Source of the DNA: an uncultured bacterium
GTDB lineage: Bacteria > Verrucomicrobiota > Kiritimatiellia > PWTM01
Direction: 5' to 3'
Length of the DNA: 64,000 nt
Assembly (NCBI GenBank): GCA_938010045.1
Contig: CALLFZ010000033.1
Span: 1 to 64,000 of the forward strand
In this document: piece by piece, positions 7,359-64,000 of the stretch
Numbering within the stretch: position 1 is the first letter of the stretch
Layout of the letters: each line of letters opens with the position of its first letter
Translations under genes and position numbers: made by a program
Notes under the pieces: generated by a model
What the model was told of the DNA's origin: nothing
What the model saw: the letters and a program-made list of their open reading frames with translations, nothing else
Database searches by the model: none

Positions 7359-10300
7359 TCAACGGGAAGGCGATGGGGACCTTGTCATCGGCACACGGCG
7401 GCAAGGACGTAGCTCAACCGGTCCGAGCAATCCTGAGGGACGCAGCGGCACGTCCATTCGCTCGAACTTCGTAATGTTCGTGCGGGTCACGCGCTGTTCG
7501 GGCGGACGCTTCCCGTCGCCAATCAGACGGTTGGCCCAGCAATTGATCACTTCCACCCGAAGCCGCCCCCCCCGGGCAAGCGCCTCGGAGGCGCCGAGTT
7601 CAACGCGGTAGGGTGCAGTCCACAGTGTTCCGAGGTCGCGGTCGTTCCACCACGCCCCGCCGATCTCATGCACGAGACCCAGGTCGAGCGTCCAGTGCAG
7701 CCCTTCCTCCGCTGGCACGGAAGGCACCGCCGTCTCGTAGAGTACGCGGCCGGAGTAGAACCGGATGCCTTCTTCGGGGTGGGCCGTCCAATCGCCGAGC
7801 CGTTCCATCTCGATCTCGGGCGGCGCGCCGCGACCGTCGAGGAACCGCACGCGCCACGGCCCGGCCACCGGCACGCCGGACGGCAGCGCGGAGACCACAA
7901 TGGACGAACGCGTGCCGTCGCTCCATCTCACCTCGTACCGCCCCTCGCGGTACGCCTCGAGCCACAGCCGGCCATCGCGTCGGGCAAGCCGAGCGATCGG
8001 CCATGGCGACGGAGCCGGCTCGGTGGAGGGCCAAAGTCGCCGTCCCTCTCGCGTCAACTCCACAGGATGGGGCTCCGTCGAGGAGCGGCGGAAGACCACG
8101 AAGATGGACCCTTCGGGGGGGAGGCGCAGAGGTACGACCGTCCGCCCGTCTTCTTCTCGCCAGATCGGCGCATCCTCCATCGTGCCGGTCAGCGGGTCCC
8201 ACAGCTCGGGGACCCTCCCGCGGATGCGGAACGAACACTCGACCTCCTCGTAACGGTCGGGAAGGTCAAATCGCCGGCGGTACTTCGTATCGGTGACGTC
8301 GCGCCACGCCCAGCGGTTGACAACGAAGTAGATGTCCGCCGTGTTGGTGCGCCGATGGATGCGGTCAAGCCACGTACCGGGCTGGGCGCTTCGCACGATG
8401 AGATCGGGCTCGATGCCCAGCCGGGCGAGCTCGGCGCGGGGCGAATTGGTTGAGATCCGTCCGCTTCCCCACAGGCGCTCAACGACGTCGGCGAATTCGC
8501 GATCCGCCGCCTCGCCGCCGGAGAGGCCCGTGCGGTGGAGCGGGCGCGGTCCCACGACCGGGATGCCGGCCGCGACCAACCGTTCGATCACACGCAGCGC
8601 CTCGAGGGACATCACGCCGGTTGCCGGAAGCGACAGCAGGCGGTAGGTCATGCCGTCGGGCAACACGATCCGGCCGTCGTTCGCGCTCACGCGCGTGCGG
8701 AGCGCCTCCTCGTTGATCACGTCGTAGTCGTAGTCGGGCCAGACGCCGGCGGGATTGTCTTCGCGCAACCGCACGAAGTTTGGCACATGGTCGCCATAGT
8801 AGTGCAGTACATCGGCGACGAACCAACCGGCCTGCAGCAGGGCCTGCGCGCGGTGGACGTAGGCGAAGAAGCCGTCCGCGCGCGGCCACCAGGTGACGTT
8901 CGGGTTGAAGTGCGTGCCGGCGAAGTACTCCTGGCCCGGGAGCCCCGCGGATGCGGGCGAGCAGGTGAAGGTATGTAGCATCAGATGGTTCAGGCCCTCA
9001 CAGAACGCGCGGTCGAGATCGTGTTTCAGGTCGCGCGGCGCGCGTTCCCAGTGGGGGCCGATCGAGGTGAACGACTCGGCCTGCATGCGCGGGCGGCCGT
9101 AGATGTGCGCGGCGCTGGCGCCCTGCTTGATAAAAAATCGGAAATTGTCCTCGATGCGGTGCCGGTCGTTCCGCACCCAGAACTCGCCGGTGGGATGATC
9201 ACAGAGACCCATCGTCTGGAGCGCATCAATGGGCGCCGCGTGGGGCCCGCCGGTTTCGGCCTGGAGTTTGAGGCCGCGGGAATGGGCGAGCTCCGCGAGC
9301 CGTCGCACATGCTCCGCGAAGAGGTCACCGAGGGTCCGCCGAACGTCCGCAAGAAACCGGTTGGACCGCTCGCGGCTCTCGAGGATGATCCCCGCCATGG
9401 CCGGCAGCCACGGGGTGAGGTCATAGCCGCGACGCCGCAAGAATTCGGCCGGCATCGCGCGCGTCCAGTTGATCGGCCCGAGCTCCCAACTGTCCGTCTG
9501 AATCGCGGCCCATGTGCGCCCCACATGGGGACCGCCGGCCTCGAGGAGGCGCTCCATCACGTCGCGCCAGTAGGCGTCCACCATCGCGGGATCGAGGTGG
9601 TCCACGGCCCAACCCTCCCAGCCCTCGCTGCACGTCGAAACGCGCGAGCCGGCGAGGGTGCTACAAAACCGCAGCACGCGCCAGCGGCCGGGTGGCGGTG
9701 TCCACTCGAGCACATCGGGCTCTACCCATCGCGGTTCAAGCACCACCACCGCGGCGAGTGGAACGGCCTCGCCCGGCGCGGTGGACTCGGGCCGCACCAA
9801 GTGCTCGGCGGGGGGCGCGTTGAAAGGGCCGGGATAACGGTGATACGCCTTCTGTTCGAAGTCGCGGATGCGGGGCATGCCCCGCTGTGAGAGATCCACG
9901 CGTCGCCCTCCCTCCAGTACGGTCATCTCCGCGACCTGCACATTGCGCGGAGCGTTGGGCGAGCGCGGATCCCAAGCGCGGGTGACGATCAGCCGCACCG
10001 CCGCCGTCATGCGGGCGTCAAAGTTCAGCTTGATTTCGCCCTCCTCGGCCGCGTTCGTGAACGCACCAGCGAGTGTCACCGAGCCGTCGGAACCGAGGAG
10101 CTCGATGCGGCCGTCGCGCGGCCCGTAGCGCGGCCGACCGAGCACTCGCACTTCGTCCAGTCGCCGAGGCTCTGGCAGCTGCACCTCCAGCCAAATAGGA
10201 CGAGCGGGCGAAGGTCCGGCCCCAGGCTTGGCGGCGGCCACCCAGAAGGTGGTGGGATCTCCGTCGATCGCGCGCTCGGGCGGAAACTCCGTCGATTCCA

Positions 10301-10859
10301 CGCTGGCGCACACCTCGGCGGATAGGGGCGCGCCGGGCGGGAAGGGAACGGCGACGACGGCGACGTCGTCACAAATACCTTCCCGCGCCGGAGGTTTCGT
10401 CAAGCGGATTCGCCGGCGCGCACCCCCCTCGATCCGCGTTTCGGTCCACACGAGCCGACGGGTGGAATCTTCGGGGCGGACATGCGGGCCGCCCAGGTTC
10501 CACCCGCTCATGATGTTGAGACTCATTTCGAAGCCGTGGCGTTCCGCCTCGTCGAGCGCAAACCGGAAAAGCCGCAACCACTCGGGCGAGGCGAACCGCG
10601 GGCCTGCGGGCACCCGCCGATGACCGTCCTGCGCGGATCCATCCGCGTCAAATATCGCCGCGCCGCCCATGCCGTGACGCTTCATCTCCTGTAGGTCGCG
10701 CGCAATGGCGTCCCGGTCCACGTTGCCGTTCAGCCACCACCACCAGCAGCGCGTGCGCGCGGCCGGCGGGGGATCGCGAAAGACAGCCTCGAGGTCCTCC
10801 GCCCCAGCCGGGAGGGTCAGAAGGACCACCACCACGATCAGACGTGTTCCGATGTCCAC
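7359..10859 (-). CDS. GH106-type alpha-L-rhamnosidase, secreted
   Basis: Large exported glycosidase of 1166 residues, resembling family GH106, which hydrolyses alpha-L-rhamnosides from plant or bacterial polysaccharides. The GTG start at 10859 is preceded by AAGGAGG with 6 bases spacing and gives a clean signal peptide (LIVVVVLLTLPAGA). The frame is open 15 codons further, but only from a TTG without a binding site. The family signature, a WWWWLNG block followed by IARDLQEMKRHGMGG, lies near residues 38-65. The central region carries LNIMSGWNLGGP and a discoidin-like beta-domain insertion (about 190-300). The C-terminal third is beta-rich, with a terminal sugar-binding-like domain. It is probably the first gene of a small unit with the DUF1080 gene. 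Confidence 0.85.
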   Translation of the reverse strand: MDIGTRLIVVVVLLTLPAGAEDLEAVFRDPPPAARTRCWWWWLNGNVDRDAIARDLQEMKRHGMGGAAIFDADGSAQDGHRRVPAGPRFASPEWLRLFRFALDEAERHGFEMSLNIMSGWNLGGPHVRPEDSTRRLVWTETRIEGGARRRIRLTKPPAREGICDDVAVVAVPFPPGAPLSAEVCASVESTEFPPERAIDGDPTTFWVAAAKPGAGPSPARPIWLEVQLPEPRRLDEVRVLGRPRYGPRDGRIELLGSDGSVTLAGAFTNAAEEGEIKLNFDARMTAAVRLIVTRAWDPRSPNAPRNVQVAEMTVLEGGRRVDLSQRGMPRIRDFEQKAYHRYPGPFNAPPAEHLVRPESTAPGEAVPLAAVVVLEPRWVEPDVLEWTPPPGRWRVLRFCSTLAGSRVSTCSEGWEGWAVDHLDPAMVDAYWRDVMERLLEAGGPHVGRTWAAIQTDSWELGPINWTRAMPAEFLRRRGYDLTPWLPAMAGIILESRERSNRFLADVRRTLGDLFAEHVRRLAELAHSRGLKLQAETGGPHAAPIDALQTMGLCDHPTGEFWVRNDRHRIEDNFRFFIKQGASAAHIYGRPRMQAESFTSIGPHWERAPRDLKHDLDRAFCEGLNHLMLHTFTCSPASAGLPGQEYFAGTHFNPNVTWWPRADGFFAYVHRAQALLQAGWFVADVLHYYGDHVPNFVRLREDNPAGVWPDYDYDVINEEALRTRVSANDGRIVLPDGMTYRLLSLPATGVMSLEALRVIERLVAAGIPVVGPRPLHRTGLSGGEAADREFADVVERLWGSGRISTNSPRAELARLGIEPDLIVRSAQPGTWLDRIHRRTNTADIYFVVNRWAWRDVTDTKYRRRFDLPDRYEEVECSFRIRGRVPELWDPLTGTMEDAPIWREEDGRTVVPLRLPPEGSIFVVFRRSSTEPHPVELTREGRRLWPSTEPAPSPWPIARLARRDGRLWLEAYREGRYEVRWSDGTRSSIVVSALPSGVPVAGPWRVRFLDGRGAPPEIEMERLGDWTAHPEEGIRFYSGRVLYETAVPSVPAEEGLHWTLDLGLVHEIGGAWWNDRDLGTLWTAPYRVELGASEALARGGRLRVEVINCWANRLIGDGKRPPEQRVTRTNITKFERMDVPLRPSGLLGPVELRPCRRVPMTRSPSPSR

Positions 10860-10913
10860 GACCAGCCTCCTTGTCCAACTTAGCGGAGCCCGCCGGAACC
10901 TCAACGGCGAGGT

Positions 10914-12070: not shown

Positions 12071-12472
12071 GCGTACATGCTGAGGACCGACAGGTTCGAA
12101 CGCTCGTGCCGGGCGCCGACGTTCAACACCGTCACGCACATTTTGTGCGGTGCCGCATCGGAACAGGCAGGCTGGACTCTTTGCCGTCGGTCGAGGCCGG
12201 CCCCAGCAAACCTGCACATCATGAACATCCGCGGACACAGGCACGCCGTGGATCCGATCTCAATCGGCCAACGCCTCGATCCGAAGCAGCGCGGGGCGTG
12301 CCTGCTTGTCGTCGCGTCCACGCCCGCCGGCCCATGGCCCCTCAAAGTGCGCGAACACGTCCGTCGGCGTCAACATGATAGGACGTACACGAGCCGCAGG
12401 AACCCGCGACGATCATGGCGTCATGGGCAGCCCACTGGGCTCACCGATGGGGATCCATTTGGGCGGCTTCAT
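12071..12472 (-). pseudogene. Degenerate third exbD/tolR copy
   Basis: Directly downstream of two intact exbD genes, the same strand carries a third, broken version. It starts at an ATG at 12470-12472 with GAGGAG upstream and reads to LPMTP, the conserved ExbD motif, then hits TGA. After frame changes, the piece MLTPTDVFAHFEG matches DVLAHLDV of the neighbouring intact ExbD. Near the end LDRRQ...CSDAAPHKM and VLNVGARHERSNLSVLSM match LDRKQ...CSGAAPHEM and VLNLCARHQLSNLSVISV. Nucleotide similarity is also obvious near 12085-12180. The proton-path Asp after MTPM is lost. This is a duplicated gene that has decayed; a sequencing artefact would need several indels confined to this copy. Confidence 0.75.
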
Positions 12473-12521: not shown

Positions 12522-12932
12522 CTAGTTGACGCTGATGACCGACAGGTTCGAAAGCTGGTGCCGCGCACACAGGTTCAGCACTTTCACGAGCATCTCGTGG
12601 GGCGCCGCGCCCGAACACAGGATCAGAATCGTCTGCTTACGATCGAGTTCCGCCAGCCGCTGAATCAGGCTGTCCAGGTCCACATCCCGGACCGGCTTGT
12701 CGTTGATGGTGTAGCCGTCGTAGAAGACGCCGATCCGGATCAGATTCTTCGGCACATCGAGCCGATCCGCCTGCTTCTCCGGCCCGGGCCGCGACACGTC
12801 GAGGTGGGCCAGCACGTCAATCGGCTTGATCGTGACCAGAAAGTACACGAGGAGCTGGAACACGATATCGATCATCGGCGTCATCGGCAGTTCCGGCTCA
12901 GGCGACTCTTTGGGCTTGCGCTTGCGGGCCAT
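12522..12932 (-). CDS. exbD: ExbD/TolR-family biopolymer transport protein (second copy)
   Basis: Single-pass inner membrane subunit of a proton-driven ExbB/ExbD or TolQ/TolR-type motor, 136 residues. A charged N-terminus is followed by MTPMIDIVFQLLVYFLVT (about 17-34). The Asp just after MTPMI is the conserved proton-relay residue. A periplasmic domain of about 95 residues follows and ends SNLSVISVN. It lies 19 bases after the first exbD in an operon with exbB. The lack of a TonB homologue nearby and the presence of two large TPR partners suggest a dedicated motor with its own periplasmic partners rather than classical TonB uptake. Confidence 0.9.
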   Translation of the reverse strand: MARKRKPKESPEPELPMTPMIDIVFQLLVYFLVTIKPIDVLAHLDVSRPGPEKQADRLDVPKNLIRIGVFYDGYTINDKPVRDVDLDSLIQRLAELDRKQTILILCSGAAPHEMLVKVLNLCARHQLSNLSVISVN

Positions 12933-12951
12933 GGCGGGTCTCGGCTCCTCG

Positions 12952-13362
12952 TCAGGCTTTTTCCTTGATGGCGGCGAACTTGATCCGCCACAGGCCGGCC
13001 TCGCTACAAATGTCCATCACGCGCCGGATGTATTCGTGGCGGGCCTTCATGTCGCCTCGGATCACGACTGGAAGTGTCTGACCGTGCCGCGCGACCGCGT
13101 TCCGCATGATCGAGCGCAGTGCGGGCAAGGTCAGCCGCTGCCGGGCGATGTAGACGCGCCCTTCATCGTCCACGTCGATGTTGATCGTGCGCGGATCCTT
13201 GCGCTCGACGGCCTTCCCGTCCGGCGCCATTGCGAGCCGCAGATCCATCTCGATTTCCTTCTGCTGCTGCGCAATGGTCACAATGAAGAAGATGATGAGC
13301 TGGAACACGACGTCAATCATCGGCGTCATGTTCAACGCCATCTCTTCTTTTCGTTTGCGCAT
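12952..13362 (-). CDS. exbD: ExbD/TolR-family biopolymer transport protein (first copy)
   Basis: Also 136 residues, with the membrane segment MTPMIDVVFQLIIFFIVT at about 12-29, including the proton-relay Asp. The periplasmic domain has the typical pattern of the family (INIDVDDEGRVYI, LPVVIRGDMKARHEYI). The N-terminus is short and basic (MRKRKEE), as expected for a cytoplasmic tail. It follows exbB by 34 bases and precedes a second, divergent exbD. Two non-identical ExbD proteins with one ExbB is a known arrangement and may give a heteromeric periplasmic shaft. Confidence 0.9.
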   Translation of the reverse strand: MRKRKEEMALNMTPMIDVVFQLIIFFIVTIAQQQKEIEMDLRLAMAPDGKAVERKDPRTINIDVDDEGRVYIARQRLTLPALRSIMRNAVARHGQTLPVVIRGDMKARHEYIRRVMDICSEAGLWRIKFAAIKEKA

Positions 13363-13396
13363 GGCCGCGGTCTCCCGTGCGCTGGCTGGTCCGACC

Positions 13397-14230
13397 TCAC
13401 TCCTCCTCGGCGACGACCTCGACGTTTCGCAGTGACTTGATCAAGTCGAGCGTGAGGCCTTCCATACCGAGAATGATCTTCGTCGCGGTGTTGCGGAAGA
13501 ACGTGTAGAAGCCCACGGATGGGATTGCGATCATGAGGCCCGCGGCGGTGGTCCACAGCGCTTGGCCGATGTTCTTCGCGAGCAGGGCGGTCTGCGCCGC
13601 ACCCGCCTCCTGCATCGCGAGCGTCATGAACGCGTAAATCATACCTTGCACGGTGCCGAGCAGCCCGAGCATCGGCGCGAGGTTCGCGCACACGTTCAAA
13701 TACGCGACCCGCTGCAGCAGCTTCTCGCTCTCGAGGTCCGCCGCGACGCCCACGATGTCCTGAATGACGTCAAACCCTTCTTGCACGTTCTGGAAGCCCG
13801 CGGTGAGGATGCTCGCCAGCGGTGTGGGACGGTTTTCGCAGTGTTTGATCGCCTTCATCACATCGCCCTGCGACATGGCCTCGCGGACGTCGTTCACGAG
13901 GTCGGCCGGCGCGATTTTCTTTTCCTTGATCGTAATGAAGGAGTCGATGATGAGCGCGGCGGCCGCCACCGAACATAGGCCGAGCGCCAGCCAGAGCACC
14001 GCGCCGAGCCATCCACTGCCGGTTACGACCGACCAAAAGCCCATGCCGCCTGCGTCCTTGCCCTTGGCGGCCGCAGCCTGCGCCTCCGGTGTCAACACGG
14101 TGGCGCCCGCGGCGGGTTGCGCGGCTGCCGGTTGGGCGGCGGGTTGCGCTGCCTCTTGGGCGCGCGCCGCCCAGACCATCGCCATCGTTGCTAGTACCGC
14201 CACGGAGGTCCATCGGATCCACGTCTTCAT
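13397..14230 (-). CDS. exbB: MotA/TolQ/ExbB-family proton channel protein
   Basis: Proton-channel subunit that works with the two downstream ExbD proteins, 277 residues. Unusually for ExbB it starts with a cleavable-looking signal peptide (ATMAMVWAARAQ) and a Pro/Ala/Gln-rich linker (about 25-60). The usual three membrane helices follow: about 70-100, 170-195 (APMLGLLGTVQGMI) and 215-240 (TTAAGLMIAIPSVGF). The conserved LGLLGTVxGMI block and the Thr/Ala-rich third helix are intact. The ATG at 14230 has an AAGGGA-type site; the upstream extension is arginine-rich and rejected. It lies 91 bases after the small TPR gene in the same direction. Confidence 0.9.
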   Translation of the reverse strand: MKTWIRWTSVAVLATMAMVWAARAQEAAQPAAQPAAAQPAAGATVLTPEAQAAAAKGKDAGGMGFWSVVTGSGWLGAVLWLALGLCSVAAAALIIDSFITIKEKKIAPADLVNDVREAMSQGDVMKAIKHCENRPTPLASILTAGFQNVQEGFDVIQDIVGVAADLESEKLLQRVAYLNVCANLAPMLGLLGTVQGMIYAFMTLAMQEAGAAQTALLAKNIGQALWTTAAGLMIAIPSVGFYTFFRNTATKIILGMEGLTLDLIKSLRNVEVVAEEE

Positions 14231-14321
14231 GCTCGTCCCTTCTTTCTTCACTCCATTCGCCGGTCGGTCCAGACCGGCTCGAAGTCTAGCCGCGTCGACG
14301 TTCTCCCGCAACGTCGTCGGC

Positions 14322-15107
14322 TCACGCCTTGCCCTTGGCGGCCGCGGCCTCGGGCGACTCGGGGTATTCCTGCAGCAGCCGACGATAAAATTCCTTCGCG
14401 CGGCCGTCGCGATTCTTCTCGAGCGCCTGCGCGACACGCAGCAACGCTGCCGGCATCAGCACCGTCTCGCGCTCGAAGAACAGCACCACGCGCAGGTAAT
14501 CGCGAATCGCGAGCTCGAGGTTGCCTTGCGCCTGACGAATGTCGCCGCGCATCAGCAGCGCGCGGCCCGCATCCACGCGGTTCTCGGATTTGATGAGGGC
14601 GGGCAATTGCTTTTCCACTTCCGAGAACTGGCGGGCCGCGATGAGGGCTTCGCGATAGGCCCAGCCGATCTCGGGATCGTTCACGAGCGCGGGGTAGTCC
14701 TTCATCAGCGTGTCGTAGACCTTCAGCATGGCCGCGCCGTCGTTCTTCGCGCGGTAGGCGCGCACGAGCAGCAGACCCGCCTCACGGTCCCACCGGAGAA
14801 ACCGCAGGTCGGACATGATCTTCTGGAGGATCGGGATCGCCTCATCGTGGCGGCCCGCCTGGACGGCCGCGGCGGCGCGGTCGAAGTCGGCCGGCTTATC
14901 GGCGCCGGCCTCGGTGTACTGGTCGCGCGTCAACTGAAACTGCTGGCCGTCCGCTCGCGTCAGGATGATCGTGCCATCCGGCCGGGCGCGGATCGCGGCC
15001 CCCTCGATGCGCTGGCCGTTTTTCAACACCACGTACGGGGCCGCGATCGCATCGAACGCGAGGGCCGCAGCGCCAAGGACTGTCCACCACCTACGCATGG
15101 TCGTCAT
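14322..15107 (-). CDS. Exported TPR protein, partner of the ExbB/D operon
   Basis: A 261-residue exported protein. The ATG at 15107 overlaps the upstream gene stop as ATGA and has AGGAGG upstream, so the two TPR genes are translationally coupled. It has an N-terminal signal (VLGAAALAFDAIAA), a short beta-rich region (about 22-60, KNGQRIEGAAIRARPDG and QFQLTRDQY, resembling small SH3-like 'key in the lock' domains) and then helical TPR-like repeats (about 75-255) ending in EYPESPEAAAAKGKA. It is probably periplasmic and may contact the larger TPR protein or the ExbD periplasmic domains. Confidence 0.75.
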   Translation of the reverse strand: MTTMRRWWTVLGAAALAFDAIAAPYVVLKNGQRIEGAAIRARPDGTIILTRADGQQFQLTRDQYTEAGADKPADFDRAAAAVQAGRHDEAIPILQKIMSDLRFLRWDREAGLLLVRAYRAKNDGAAMLKVYDTLMKDYPALVNDPEIGWAYREALIAARQFSEVEKQLPALIKSENRVDAGRALLMRGDIRQAQGNLELAIRDYLRVVLFFERETVLMPAALLRVAQALEKNRDGRAKEFYRRLLQEYPESPEAAAAKGKA

Positions 15108-17989
15108 CGCGGAGTGCCTCCTGCGGGCGCGGGCGCCGGCACCGCCGCCGCGGGCGGCTCGGCGGCCGCGGCCTTCAGACGCAGCGCCTGCTGGCGGCGC
15201 CGCACCTCGGCGGCCGCGGGCAGATCGCCGAACTTTGCCAGGTACCGGTCGCACGCGCTGATCGCATCGTTGAACCGCCCAAGTTCCTCGTGCACGTCGA
15301 TGGCGTGCCGGAGCGCCTCCTCGATCATCGGTCGGATCTTCTCGTTCGTTTCATCGGCCAGCAAGATAATGCGCTCGTACGACGCGGCCGCCTGTCGGAG
15401 CGGCTCGTCGGCCGCGGCGGCCTTGTTCTCGGCCTTCAATTTCGCAGCAAACTCGCGGTACACCTTCGCAAGCTCCATATTTGCCTGGTTCACCACCACC
15501 GGATCGGTCGCCACTTTGAAGATCTCGTTCAGCGTCGCGATCGCCTCTGGATACTTGCCGGTCTCGCGGTAGGCCTTCGACAGCAGCGTCCGGGCCTCGT
15601 AGAACAACCCCGTGCGCGGATACCGCGTCATCAGGTCCTCGAGCTTCTCGATTGCCTTTTCCTTCTGGCCCGCCTCGTAGGCCGCCACTCCCAGGCCGTA
15701 CAGGCTCCGCTCCAGCAGCGCCCGGTCGCTCGCGCCGCCGGCCAACACCATCTCGAAGGCCTGCACCGCCGCGGGGTACTTCTTTCCGTCGAGGAACCAC
15801 TGCCCGATGCGCACGAATTGATCCGGCGTGTAGAGCTTCGAGGGCGTCCCGGGCTTCTCACCGGCCATGATTTTGCCAAACGCCTCCTCGGCGATGTCAT
15901 AGCGTCCGATCTCGACCGCGGCGCGGATCAGCGAAAACAGCGCGCTCTTCCCGTCCTCCGAGTTCGGATACTCGCGCCCGAGCCGCTCGAACGTCTTCGC
16001 GGCCTCCTCCGACCGGCCGAGCTCTAGGTGGATCGCGCCGACCAGGTTGATCGCCTTCGGCGCCAGCTCGGAGTTCTTGTACTCCTTCACGAACGATTCG
16101 AGCGCGGCGACCGCCTCGGCCCGGATCTTCGCTTTCTCCGCGTCCTCGGCCGGCTGCTTGAACCGGCAGTAGCCGATGTAGAAGCGGGCCTTTTCGATCA
16201 GGTCCGTCGCCTTCTTCACCTCGTCAGCCGTTTTCGCATATGGGTTGTTCTCGCGCGGGGAGAGCCACTCCACGAGCCGTTGGTACGACTCGGCCGCCGC
16301 CGCGAACTGGTTGAGCCGCATCTGGCAGTCGGCCAGGCTAAAGAGCGCGAGCGCGCGGTGATGCGACGGAGGGCTCTCCTTGACGAAGCGGGTGAATGCC
16401 TCGAGCGCGCCCTCGTAGTCCTGCATCTCGTAGCGGTCCCATCCCAGCGTGCTGAGCGCGCGCAGGAAGAACTGGTCCTGCGGATATTGGTCGATGATCC
16501 GTTTGAGCAGATCCCGTGAGCCGGCCGTGTCCCCCTTTTTCTTCAGCATGGAGGCCGCCAGAAACAGCACCTGCGGCGCACGCTCGTGCTTCGGATACGC
16601 GTCCGCAAAGATCTTGTAGACGTGCACGCACGAGTTGGTGTCGCCCTTGTCAAAGAAGTGTTTGCCCAGCGCGAGCAGGGCCAGTCCGCTCGTCGCGTCC
16701 CCCGCGCGGGTCTCGCGAATGTGGTCGAGCGCCGCCTCGAGTTCCATCCGGCGGCCCGTCTCGGCCAGCGAGATCAGCAGCGGTGTCAGCAGCGGGCCCA
16801 TCTCGGCCGCCTTCGGAAACGCGTTGATCACTTTCAGCGCCGCGCCGGCGGCCTCGGCATATTTCTTCTGCAGGAAGAAGTCGTCGATCAGCCGTTGCTG
16901 CGCGGCGACGGCCTTCTGCATATGCGCGCCCCAGTCAATGCGGATCTCGCGGTTGAACTTCGTGCGCACCAGAGCGGCCAACCGCTCCGTGCGCGCACCG
17001 GCCTCGGGCGCCCACTCGCTGTCCGGGTACTTCGCAAACACGTTCGCATACTCGGAAATCGCGGCCGCGTAGGCGCGAAGCTGCTCCTCGCCCGATTTCT
17101 TCTCGGCCTCCTTCTCATAGAGCTCGCCGAGCAGAAACCGCGCATAGGCCATCGGACTCTCGCCAAGGGGCAGCTTCTCCTGCCGCAGGATTTCGTCCAC
17201 CCCCTTCATCAGGTCCATGTTGTTGCGCAGCAGCTTGATCGCTGCCTCCGGCCGGCCGCGCACGATCTCGATGTTGGCCATCGCGGCGATGGACTGGCAG
17301 AACGCGACGTCGATTCCCTCTTTCCCCCATTGGATCTCCTCGCAGAGCTTCCAGGCGCGGTCGAGCAACTTCTTCTGGTCTTCGCCCTTTTTGGTCTTCG
17401 CCACGTCAATCAGCAACTGACACAGATCCACCTGCACCCGCCGCGCCACGCCGGGCTCCGGTTTTGCCTTCAGGATGTTCTCGTAGGCGCCGATCGCGCC
17501 GTCCGGGTCGCCCGCGCGGATGAGCATCTGACCGAACCGATAGGCCGCGTCGATGTAAAAGCGGCGAAGGTCCGGATCGGTGGGCACGGTTTTGTATTGC
17601 GCAAAAAACTCTTGATAGAGCTTGCGCGCGCGCTCGATCTCGCGGTGCCGGTACATGTGGTTGGCGAGCGCGAGCCGAGCGGCCTGCGTCTTCGGATTAT
17701 CGGCCGGCATTTCGCGGAGCAGCTTTTCCGCGTCGTCAAACTTGCGCCGGGACCCGAGGATTTCGATCTGTACCACCCGCGCGCGCTCCTTCAGAGCGGG
17801 GTTTTCAAGAATCATCTGGTCCAGCATCCGCTCCGCGTAGTCGGCAAAGCCGATCTCGACCAGTTTGGAGGCGAAGACGAACTCCTCATCTAGATCGTCC
17901 TCCGCCTGAGCCGCCACCGCCGCCAAGGCCGCGACGGCCACCGCCAACGCAACCGCCGCCCCTCGCGATGTCAGGTCCGACCACGTCAT
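15104..17989 (-). CDS. Large periplasmic TPR protein
   Basis: A 961-residue exported protein built almost wholly from tetratricopeptide repeats, of the kind found in YbgF/CpoB and BamD-like scaffolds (repeated patterns such as AxxxYxRLVxxxP and Gx..YP.SE). The start ATG has GAGG 8 bases upstream, and the first 30 residues form a signal peptide (VALAVAVAALAAVAAQAED). The C-terminus is Pro/Ala-rich (about 940-961). It is the first gene of an operon with a second TPR protein, ExbB and two ExbD proteins. In Tol and Exb systems the periplasmic partner is normally a TolB/Pal or TonB; here a TPR scaffold takes that position. It is likely to assemble protein complexes in the periplasm, but its ligand is unknown. 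Confidence 0.85.
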   Translation of the reverse strand: MTWSDLTSRGAAVALAVAVAALAAVAAQAEDDLDEEFVFASKLVEIGFADYAERMLDQMILENPALKERARVVQIEILGSRRKFDDAEKLLREMPADNPKTQAARLALANHMYRHREIERARKLYQEFFAQYKTVPTDPDLRRFYIDAAYRFGQMLIRAGDPDGAIGAYENILKAKPEPGVARRVQVDLCQLLIDVAKTKKGEDQKKLLDRAWKLCEEIQWGKEGIDVAFCQSIAAMANIEIVRGRPEAAIKLLRNNMDLMKGVDEILRQEKLPLGESPMAYARFLLGELYEKEAEKKSGEEQLRAYAAAISEYANVFAKYPDSEWAPEAGARTERLAALVRTKFNREIRIDWGAHMQKAVAAQQRLIDDFFLQKKYAEAAGAALKVINAFPKAAEMGPLLTPLLISLAETGRRMELEAALDHIRETRAGDATSGLALLALGKHFFDKGDTNSCVHVYKIFADAYPKHERAPQVLFLAASMLKKKGDTAGSRDLLKRIIDQYPQDQFFLRALSTLGWDRYEMQDYEGALEAFTRFVKESPPSHHRALALFSLADCQMRLNQFAAAAESYQRLVEWLSPRENNPYAKTADEVKKATDLIEKARFYIGYCRFKQPAEDAEKAKIRAEAVAALESFVKEYKNSELAPKAINLVGAIHLELGRSEEAAKTFERLGREYPNSEDGKSALFSLIRAAVEIGRYDIAEEAFGKIMAGEKPGTPSKLYTPDQFVRIGQWFLDGKKYPAAVQAFEMVLAGGASDRALLERSLYGLGVAAYEAGQKEKAIEKLEDLMTRYPRTGLFYEARTLLSKAYRETGKYPEAIATLNEIFKVATDPVVVNQANMELAKVYREFAAKLKAENKAAAADEPLRQAAASYERIILLADETNEKIRPMIEEALRHAIDVHEELGRFNDAISACDRYLAKFGDLPAAAEVRRRQQALRLKAAAAEPPAAAVPAPAPAGGTPR

Positions 17990-62032: not shown

Positions 62033-62050
62033 CCTTGACCAAGATCAAGG
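62033..62050 (-). promoter_or_regulatory. Fnr/Crp-family (HcpR-like) operator upstream of the ferredoxin-cupin operon
   Basis: Perfect inverted repeat CCTTGA-N6-TCAAGG, reading TTGAC-CAAG-ATCAA in its core. This differs by one base from the Fnr consensus TTGAT-N4-ATCAA, and its left half equals the HcpR half-site TTGAC. Its centre is about 78 bases upstream of the ferredoxin ATG; if it acts at -41.5, transcription would start near 62000. It overlaps the last bases of the upstream glycosidase gene. Confidence 0.55.
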
Positions 62051-64000
62051 TTTCGCAAAGCCGGCCGCAGCGGTTGGTTGGGCCGACTCGAACGGCCGCG
62101 CTTCGACCACGAACGGTTCGAAGAGGCCGCACGGGATCACGTCGTAGGCTTCGCCCGGCGGCAGTCCGCCCTTGGGTGCCTGAGCCATGTTGAACGGCGA
62201 AGCCAGCCCTCGCACGGGGCCGGCATGGAAGGGCCCGAGCAAATTCTTGAGCGTGCCGTACACTCGGACGGCGATGTCGTGGCGGCCAGCCGGCAAGTCG
62301 GCGGGCAGGTCCAGTTCGTAGGGTGGTGGCGCGATGAGACCGACGGGCCGGCCGTCCACGCACACTTCCGCGACCGTGCCCCACCAGGCGGGCAGCCGCA
62401 CGCGCAGCCGCATACCGGCCGGCGCTTCGAACTCGGCGGCGTATTCGACCCGGCCCGCGTAGGTCGGCAGACCCTGAGCGGACCACGGACCCACGTCGAG
62501 CTGTGCCGGCGGCACGATGGTGAAACCTCGTTGCGCGGGCCGCAGTGAAAACTCGCCGAGCAACACCACCTGGTCCACCTCGTGCAGAACGGTCATCGGC
62601 GCGGCGCGCAACGTCAGCTCATTCGTGCCGGTGCGCGCGACCGCCGCGAGGTCCACCCGTCCGAACGAGCGGTCGAGCCACCAGGCGTTGGGCGTCGCCT
62701 GCACGGGGCGTCCGTTGCACTCGAGAGTGTAGAGGTCCGGCCGCTCCACGACCGCTTCGAGGCGCGCGGGTGGGTCGCCCTCGATCACGAAGCGGTACGT
62801 GGCCGTAACGCCGCTGTCGGCCGGGAACGTAAGGGTGTTGATTCGGTCGCGAAATTGCACCGCATGCCGCCATGGGTTCTTCGCGAGACCGTGTTGCTGG
62901 AACACCCAATCGGCCGCGGCGACGACATGCAGATTCGTGCGAGAGCCCGCGCAGTCCACTTCCACGAAATCGAGTGGGAGCATCGCGGGATCGAGCCGGC
63001 GAATCCGCAATTCGCGCAGCGGCGCGAGCCGCCGACCCGGGGCATCGGACACCGGCGCGGGCACGGGGCCCGCGGCGGCCGCCAGCCGCAGCAGGCGGCT
63101 GCCGGCCGGCGGCAGCGCGAACGGTATGCGCAGCCCTTCGGCCACGGTGTTCGCGGCGGCAGGCGCCATGTCGCCGGTCCAGGGGTTCCACTCCTCCGCC
63201 CAGCGCGCGGGGCTCCGCACATACCCGCGGCTCCATTCATTTGAACTCGTGTTGACGAGGAAGAGCAGCTCATCTTCGCCGACACGTCGCCGCAGATGGA
63301 AGAGCTTGCCCGATGCGTCCAGCCGCTCGACTCGCGCGCCGGGGGCCAGGAAGGGTCTCAGCGCCTCCGCGAGCGCCGCCGGCGGGACCGTCCGCCAGCC
63401 TGTCTCCCGCGCGAGGCGCGCGGGCTCGTCCGAAAGGCGCGCGTCCACCCGCGCCGGTGGCGCGTCGCACGCGAACACGGTGCCGCCCTCGCGCACGAAC
63501 GCGGCCAACATGCGCACCGTCGCCGCGGATAGAGTCTCCGTGCCCGGTGGCAGCACCACGGCGCGGTACTCGCGCCGGCCGACGCGCAGCCGTCCGTTCA
63601 CGCTCGTTCCGATCCGCTCGATCACATCCTCGCTGCCCAGCTCATATTCGATCTGCGCGGCCTCGAGCGCGCCGAGCAGCCGGTGAACAGCCTCAGCGAT
63701 CTCCACCGCACGTGCGCCTGGCTTCGATCCCTCCTGGTACATCCAGCAGGTCGTCGTCGGCTCAATCACGAGCGCGGCCGCCGGCGGCGCCTCGCCCTGC
63801 GTAAGCGCCCACTGAAGCCGCGCGACATACCGTGCCTGCATCGTGTAGAGGTCCCACCAGGGCGCGTGGTACGAAAACGACACTGGGTAGTCGCGCTTCC
63901 GGGCGCCGCGGATGCTGATGTGCGAGAGGTGCTGATTGATCGTGTTCACGCCGAGCACGAGCAGCCAGTCGCCGATGCGCTTGAGGTCCTCGAAGCGCAC
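62045..64000 (-). CDS. C-terminal part of a large glycoside hydrolase (GH106-like), cut by the window edge
   Basis: At least 651 residues; the gene begins beyond the right edge. The visible part starts in a catalytic barrel segment (LGVNTINQHLSHISIRG, SYHAPWWDLYTMQARYVARL), then a GATase-like domain (about 100-220, RAVVLPPGTETLS and FVREGGTVFACDA), a beta-sandwich (about 330-480) and a C-terminal jelly-roll sugar-binding domain (about 490-620). The layout resembles GH106 or related rhamnosidase-type enzymes, but the family-defining N-terminus is missing. The stop at 62045-62047 overlaps the Fnr-like palindrome. Confidence 0.7.
   Translation of the reverse strand: MRFEDLKRIGDWLLVLGVNTINQHLSHISIRGARKRDYPVSFSYHAPWWDLYTMQARYVARLQWALTQGEAPPAAALVIEPTTTCWMYQEGSKPGARAVEIAEAVHRLLGALEAAQIEYELGSEDVIERIGTSVNGRLRVGRREYRAVVLPPGTETLSAATVRMLAAFVREGGTVFACDAPPARVDARLSDEPARLARETGWRTVPPAALAEALRPFLAPGARVERLDASGKLFHLRRRVGEDELLFLVNTSSNEWSRGYVRSPARWAEEWNPWTGDMAPAAANTVAEGLRIPFALPPAGSRLLRLAAAAGPVPAPVSDAPGRRLAPLRELRIRRLDPAMLPLDFVEVDCAGSRTNLHVVAAADWVFQQHGLAKNPWRHAVQFRDRINTLTFPADSGVTATYRFVIEGDPPARLEAVVERPDLYTLECNGRPVQATPNAWWLDRSFGRVDLAAVARTGTNELTLRAAPMTVLHEVDQVVLLGEFSLRPAQRGFTIVPPAQLDVGPWSAQGLPTYAGRVEYAAEFEAPAGMRLRVRLPAWWGTVAEVCVDGRPVGLIAPPPYELDLPADLPAGRHDIAVRVYGTLKNLLGPFHAGPVRGLASPFNMAQAPKGGLPPGEAYDVIPCGLFEPFVVEARPFESAQPTAAAGFAKP

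Follow-up and report, generated by a model that had tools for sequence, protein, structure and literature searches.

A conserved ExbB/ExbD motor operon of Kiritimatiellia and its probable membrane-anchored toroid transducer

This study examined an ExbB/ExbD-type motor operon in a 64,000-nucleotide stretch of DNA (the window; bases 1-64000 of contig 33) from an uncultured bacterium of the class Kiritimatiellia, whose genome (G000; 3.2 Mb, 49 contigs, 98% complete) was compared with those of its relatives. On the minus strand, from 17989 to 12522, the window carries a run of five genes encoding a large TPR protein (lTPR), a small TPR protein (sTPR), an ExbB and two ExbD proteins; in most relatives this run is followed by a sixth gene, encoding a membrane-anchored protein that probably serves the motor as a force transducer. 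The features of the locus are as follows.

15104..17989, minus strand: lTPR, the first gene of the operon, a probably exported TPR protein of 961 amino acids (aa)
14322..15107, minus strand: sTPR, 261 aa, probably exported, with a six-strand beta domain (residues 25-68) followed by TPR helices
13397..14230, minus strand: ExbB/TolQ-type motor protein, 277 aa, with a signal peptide and an Ala/Gln/Pro linker
12952..13362, minus strand: ExbD1/TolR-type protein, 136 aa (Pfam ExbD, 8.5e-26)
12522..12932, minus strand: ExbD2/TolR-type protein, 136 aa (Pfam ExbD, 2.6e-16)
12076..12201, minus strand: decayed remnant of an additional ExbD2 (59.5% over 42 aa by tblastn, E 4.6e-11)

The order of the five genes and the coupling of the two TPR reading frames through a shared ATGA (15107-15104) had been given in a preliminary description of this DNA, and the Pfam domains agree with it. 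TPR repeats were found by Pfam in both lTPR (TPR_6, 2.3e-39) and sTPR; lTPR also scored 153.5 bits, summed over its repeats, against the NCBIfam model tol_pal_ybgF (cut-off 90.1), and the AlphaFold2 model of sTPR (mean pLDDT 94.4), a small beta domain with TPR helices, had BamD as its top Foldseek match (E 1.6e-4). ExbB matched MotA_ExbB (1.2e-25), and the best NCBIfam models for ExbB and ExbD1 were tolQ (85.8 bits, under its cut-off of 221) and tolR (likewise below cut-off). The working residues of such motors are a conserved pore Thr in ExbB and a membrane Asp in ExbD. T193 and T228 of ExbB were unchanged across 24 aligned rows, and the membrane Asp was present in 33 of 33 rows of ExbD1 (32 by pattern, 1 read as TAMID) and in 31 of 32 rows of ExbD2 (28 by pattern, 3 read as TAMID), the remaining row being truncated. 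The role of these residues is in part taken from the sections covered of PMC12204202. With MotA_ExbB and ExbD domains in adjoining genes and the conserved Thr and Asp in place, the operon encodes a motor of the ExbB/ExbD-TolQ/TolR type.

According to a simple hydrophobicity rule, which is not a trained predictor and for which the best Met was chosen for lTPR and ExbB, the N-termini of lTPR, sTPR and ExbB resemble Sec signal peptides, as do those of 29/29 lTPR, 39/40 sTPR and 31/34 ExbB sequences. A pattern check detected no lipobox in the three N-termini from the window; among the relatives, 3 of 29 lTPR and 2 of 40 sTPR sequences matched the pattern. The 38 residues after the ExbB leader hold 16 Ala, 5 Gln and 4 Pro. 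The export signal and Pro/Ala/Gln linker that the preliminary description assigned to ExbB were thus recovered under this rule, although its view of them as unusual was not, as the part of PMC9008036 consulted already describes "long" ExbBs, which are extended at the N-terminus and carry a putative signal peptide. Pfam and NCBIfam scans of the five operon products found no TonB_C, TolA or Pal domain, in agreement with the same description, and domain scans placed no TolB among them.

The motor and its TPR genes were found to be conserved well beyond the window. Of 570 confirmed candidate loci, the best 80 were compared; their labels are mostly Kiritimatiellae, Lentisphaerae, Verrucomicrobia or "uncultured bacterium". 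The genes of the operon were sought in these 80 loci with profiles built from the class, with denominators referring to loci that had room on the contig or in which the gene was found. In this set, lTPR lies upstream in 73/73 loci, sTPR is present in 76/78, ExbD1 in 79/79 and ExbD2 in 78/78, a recurrence of operon order in nearly all of the 80 loci that exceeds chance. Orthologs of the window's ExbB were identified in 33 of 38 genomes including G000 (split in G018 and cut by a contig end in G020), with identities of 48-94%, the listed paralogs reaching no more than 39%. The core of the preliminary description, an ExbB/ExbD motor accompanied by two probably exported TPR proteins and conserved in the lineage, was therefore borne out.

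A sixth gene, which is absent from the window, follows ExbD2 in 64 of the 71 loci with room for it. Its product starts with a single membrane helix, continues in a linker that is acidic and contains proline, and ends in a domain with a match to SQHop_cyclase_C (1.7e-7 for the protein of G000). A structure modelled from the sequence of locus L075 with a 38-row alignment predicted a helix at residues 35-54, a linker of mostly low confidence at 56-135 and, spanning roughly residues 143 to 466, a helical domain predicted with confidence, mostly with pLDDT above 90. By Foldseek this domain resembles squalene-hopene cyclases as well as GH76 mannanases, the lowest E being 6.2e-8. A second aligner ranked the squalene-hopene cyclase 2sqc_A highest (Z 27.0 over 282 residues at 2.8 A), and sugar epimerases scored only slightly lower (Z about 25). 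The end domain of the transducer is accordingly modelled as an (alpha/alpha)6 toroid of the squalene-cyclase fold. DxDD is the defining catalytic motif of class II terpene cyclases; it occurred after residue 120 in 8 of 38 transducer rows and, in one of six rows inspected, lay near the C-terminus, and GCxEQ occurred in 0 of 38. Judged by its alignment, the toroid is unlikely to be a class II terpene cyclase, as a conserved DxDD is wanting. Many of its aromatic and polar positions show little or no variation, which would suit a putative binding site.

The membrane helix was compared with the anchors of known transducers, for which SHLS is the motif in TonB and TolA (PMC12204202). Among 72 transducer reading frames scoring at least 370 bits, the TonB/TolA-type signature SxxxH was found at the helix in 46, and the helix of the G000 transducer has the S, H and L of SHLS. 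Looser patterns not confined to the helix were matched by 47 frames for S and 49 for H, and [SA]xxxH by 50 frames, at least three of them chance matches; Leu stood at +11 in 34 of these 50. The anchor and linker also matched the TolA model weakly (E 0.012, far under cut-off), and none of the four toroid transducers that were scanned with Pfam matched TonB_C or TonB_2 at E up to 0.1. As a separate observation, in the transducers of L114, L122, L123, L129, L135 and L138 the His of the helix is replaced by Pro, and the cytoplasmic N-terminus is longer and includes a GLKxPKxSxEYK-like stretch.

Loss of the transducer from the window's genome was considered and rejected. A search with the copy from G002, a member of the same genus in which the gene lies inside the operon, located it on contig 33 at 68115-69554 (minus strand; 84% identity), approximately 4 kb beyond the end of the window and 50 kb from the operon. 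In G001 the distance is about 80 kb, again within one contig, and in G003 the gene is on another contig. Of the four members of the genus that were examined, three (G000, G001 and G003) therefore have it displaced, and such a displacement can give an operon the appearance of lacking a part. In the window, the decayed ExbD2 fragment sits beside the intact ExbD2, where relatives carry the transducer gene. By eye this duplicate perhaps reaches about 12470, and it was not found at three loci of the same genus (L024, L025 and L027).

Presence of the transducer followed that of the motor across genomes. By a reading of search rows, the transducer is present in 34 of 38 genomes, with matches that are partial, split or at contig edges in G016, G018, G031 and G034. 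Neither the ExbB ortholog nor the transducer was found in G009, G023 and G028; G008 had no ExbB ortholog and nothing beyond toroid-only matches, and G014 had the transducer only. The two agree in presence or absence in 37 of the 38 genomes. A transducer profile search of the phylum, with at most five candidates scored per genome, matched 145 of 288 genomes (E <= 1e-40), some through the toroid alone; by row count, 85 of 97 were in the class and 60 of 191 elsewhere. From these 60, 18 were inspected and 13 with a strong ExbB-ortholog match were taken for neighbourhoods. The full six-gene order was present in seven of the 13 (L166, L171-L175 and L177), and the transducer was not adjacent in six (L167-L170, L176 and L178), two of them at contig ends; lTPR was not found in the L178 neighbourhood. 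The distant loci L179 and L180 contain TPR, ExbB and two ExbD genes together with a toroid, and in genus g66 anchored toroids occur as three tandem copies in L181 (4679-9826, minus strand) and as one in L182.

The window's motor is one of several in its genome, which encodes seven ExbB and eight ExbD domains. Contig 3 carries two ExbBs, one ExbD and a TonB_C protein (2.2e-23), and the next reading frame of this TonB operon (L016) is TPR-like by eye. An operon on contig 31 (L017) begins with a gene for a TPR protein and another for a weakly TPR-like one, continues with ExbB and two ExbD genes and then encodes a vWA-like protein with an SxxxH helix (VWA_2 2.7e-4, 22.0 bits, below the Pfam cut-off of 27); its ExbB is 34.5% identical to that of the window, and the vWA and toroid operons of this genome share one gene order with a different end domain on the transducer. 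Contig 17 carries ExbB, ExbD and then a TolA-like gene (TonB_2 1.3e-15), and contig 11 a pair of TolB (PD40 8.5e-25) and Pal (OmpA 6.1e-22). Since Ton, Tol-Pal and vWA gene sets all lie elsewhere in the genome, the window's motor is additional to them. A tree built from 31 ExbB rows has a branch (support 98/99) that sets the 17 operon-type sequences apart, the remaining six ExbBs of G000 lying across it; the toroid-linked ExbBs of L179 and L180 join those of vWA operons (91/82), a grouping flagged as a possible long-branch join that, as a side observation, hints at exchange of end domains.

Some other frames were noted in passing. Contig 3 holds a further cluster of TPR, ExbB and ExbD genes followed by a 233-aa protein (L020:6186-10483, plus strand) that had no Pfam match at E up to 0.1. 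Contig 49 of G000 encodes another anchored toroid protein (L071:1621-3222, plus strand), with a weak zf-HC2-like (anti-sigma-type) segment before its membrane helix (zf-HC2 E 0.0025, below cut-off), and by eye a protein like it is encoded in G003 (L069:8075-9865, plus strand). Within the window, the large frames at 7359-10904 and 62045-64000 (both minus strand) by eye resemble related exported glycoside hydrolases.

Combined, the conserved six-gene unit, the motor residues, the anchor signature of most transducers, the predicted toroid fold and the displacement in the window's genus are best read as an ExbB/ExbD motor that probably drives a TolA/TonB-like transducer in which a toroid replaces TonB_C, parallel to the vWA transducers of PMC12204202. 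As family knowledge would suggest, ExbB may form a pentamer with ExbD1 and ExbD2 as its pore pair, and proton flow would turn this pair inside ExbB. The anchor of the single-pass transducer may dock on ExbB and be pulled by the turning ExbD pair, so that force would pass to the toroid, which could work on a periplasmic or outer-membrane partner or on a glycan; the two TPR proteins would form a periplasmic scaffold and be the putative partners of the toroid. A wider proposal, to which we give even chances, is that the toroid and vWA operons are one ancestral motor-TPR module with exchangeable periplasmic end domains, the toroid gripping or processing an envelope glycan or lipid under mechanical load.

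Several observations weigh against a motor-driven toroid. The helix lacks His in 22 of the 72 transducer frames (most with a SAPxxAxxxP-like helix), Ala replaces Ser in two and another two are fragments without a helix, so TonB-type docking cannot hold for all of them; the fourth residue of SHLS (Ser at +15) is present in just 2 of the 50 frames of the looser count. No transducer lies downstream in 7 of the 71 loci (L074, which is on a contig of G003 from the window's genus, L092, L093, L127, L128, L136 and L141), L128 having it directly upstream of lTPR instead, and in G000 itself the gene stands outside the motor operon. No ExbB was found near the g66 toroids in the stretches of 12-16 kb around L181 and L182, suggesting that toroids may act without a motor. 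The grouping of the L179 and L180 ExbBs with the vWA type counts against a simple history, as toroids may have been gained or swapped repeatedly. Additionally, some of the 80 loci counted come from genomes on which the profiles were seeded, and the 13 neighbourhoods from outside the class were drawn from genomes already known to match the transducer.

Of the other explanations, the strongest is that the toroid is an envelope enzyme or sugar-binding protein that merely shares the operon and is not force-driven. Its fold is widespread among sugar enzymes and terpene cyclases, and both the helices without His and the anchored toroids without a nearby ExbB would fit; nevertheless, we regard it as unlikely given the anchor signature in 46 of 72 frames, the agreement between motor and transducer in all but one of 38 genomes and the vWA transducer that takes the same position in the related operon L017. 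A mucin-type glycan uptake function as in Akkermansia, to which g66 would at most tentatively be assigned, was not adopted. No ExbB was found in the stretches covered around the g66 toroids, and the part of the review PMC12418764 covered here mentions pili and periplasmic protein complexes only.

The preliminary description had instead proposed that the TPR proteins are themselves the periplasmic force partners of ExbB/ExbD, in place of TonB or TolA. Both accompany the motor as regularly as the ExbDs do (73/73 and 76/78) and look exported, and the window operon has no transducer. This explanation now appears improbable: the neighbourhood survey that the description had called for places an anchored gene after ExbD2 in 64 of 71 loci, with SxxxH in 46 of 72 frames, and G000 retains that gene. 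The description itself had named linkage of a TonB/TolA gene with the operon of relatives as counting against its proposal, and this is in substance what was found, although the end domain is a toroid and not TonB_C; the TonB that it had suggested looking for elsewhere in the genome is encoded on contig 3. The window's TPR proteins have no lipobox, and TPR genes also stand beside G000 motors that have a transducer of their own (the vWA operon and, by eye, the TonB operon), suggesting that they are companions and not replacements. We find it scarcely credible that the operon is the lineage's Tol-Pal system in another form. The score of lTPR above the YbgF cut-off, the tolQ and tolR models as best (if below cut-off) for ExbB and ExbD1 and the near-universal presence of the operon in the class sample (ExbB ortholog in 33/38 genomes) would accord with it, but G000 has a TolB-Pal pair on contig 11 and a TolA-like gene after ExbB/ExbD on contig 17. 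A related reading, in which the operon replaces Tol-Pal, arose from TolB_N matches in 2 of 38 genomes and none in G000; it was dropped since TolB-like frames adjoin Pal in G000, G003 and G033, the TolB_N model being too weak here (E 0.0099 on the TolB of G000).

Compared with the TonB-ExbB-ExbD and TolQ-TolR-TolA systems, the motor with a toroid transducer shares an ExbB/ExbD motor, an SxxxH-type anchor in most transducers, a flexible linker and a globular periplasmic domain; it differs in its two ExbD genes, its TPR pair, the lack of TonB_C or TonB_2 in the four transducers scanned and the lack of TolB/Pal in the operon. It is not a Ton system by its transducer, as neither the operon nor these four proteins has TonB_C, and not Tol-Pal, as TolB, Pal and a TolA-like gene are located on contigs 11 and 17 instead of beside the motor. 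A TPR-motif protein, TtpD2, is likewise required in the TonB2 system of Vibrio vulnificus, although TonB2 and TtpC2 are present there and TtpD2 accompanies TonB without replacing it, according to the part of PMC6957404 consulted. Squalene-hopene cyclases and other (alpha/alpha)6 enzymes share the predicted toroid fold (Z 27.0) and differ in the membrane anchor and linker. In the literature covered, mostly titles and with bioRxiv, most subscription papers and supplements outside its scope, no title was recognised as describing a toroid transducer gene, and the portions covered of PMC12283558 and PMC12505986 have nothing on one; the transducers described there for ExbB/ExbD-type motors are TonB, TolA and, as a prediction from 2025, vWA. 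The closest likeness is to the vWA force transducers predicted for Planctomycetes-Verrucomicrobia-Chlamydiae (PVC) bacteria by Williams-Jones et al. (2025; PMC12204202), whose published layout is that of L017. Both systems have a TPR gene, a TolQ-like protein, two different TolR-like proteins and a transducer that crosses the membrane once and has a disordered linker; the SHLS helix of the vWA transducers is matched in S and H by 46 of the 72 toroid frames. Here the end domain is a predicted (alpha/alpha)6 toroid in place of a C-terminal vWA domain, and the words "toroid" and "prenyltransferase" appear nowhere in the main text of that paper. If the proposed role is true, the toroid transducer would help to explain the seven ExbB domains of G000 and would add an enzyme-like domain to the list of ExbB/ExbD transducers, beside TonB, TolA and vWA.

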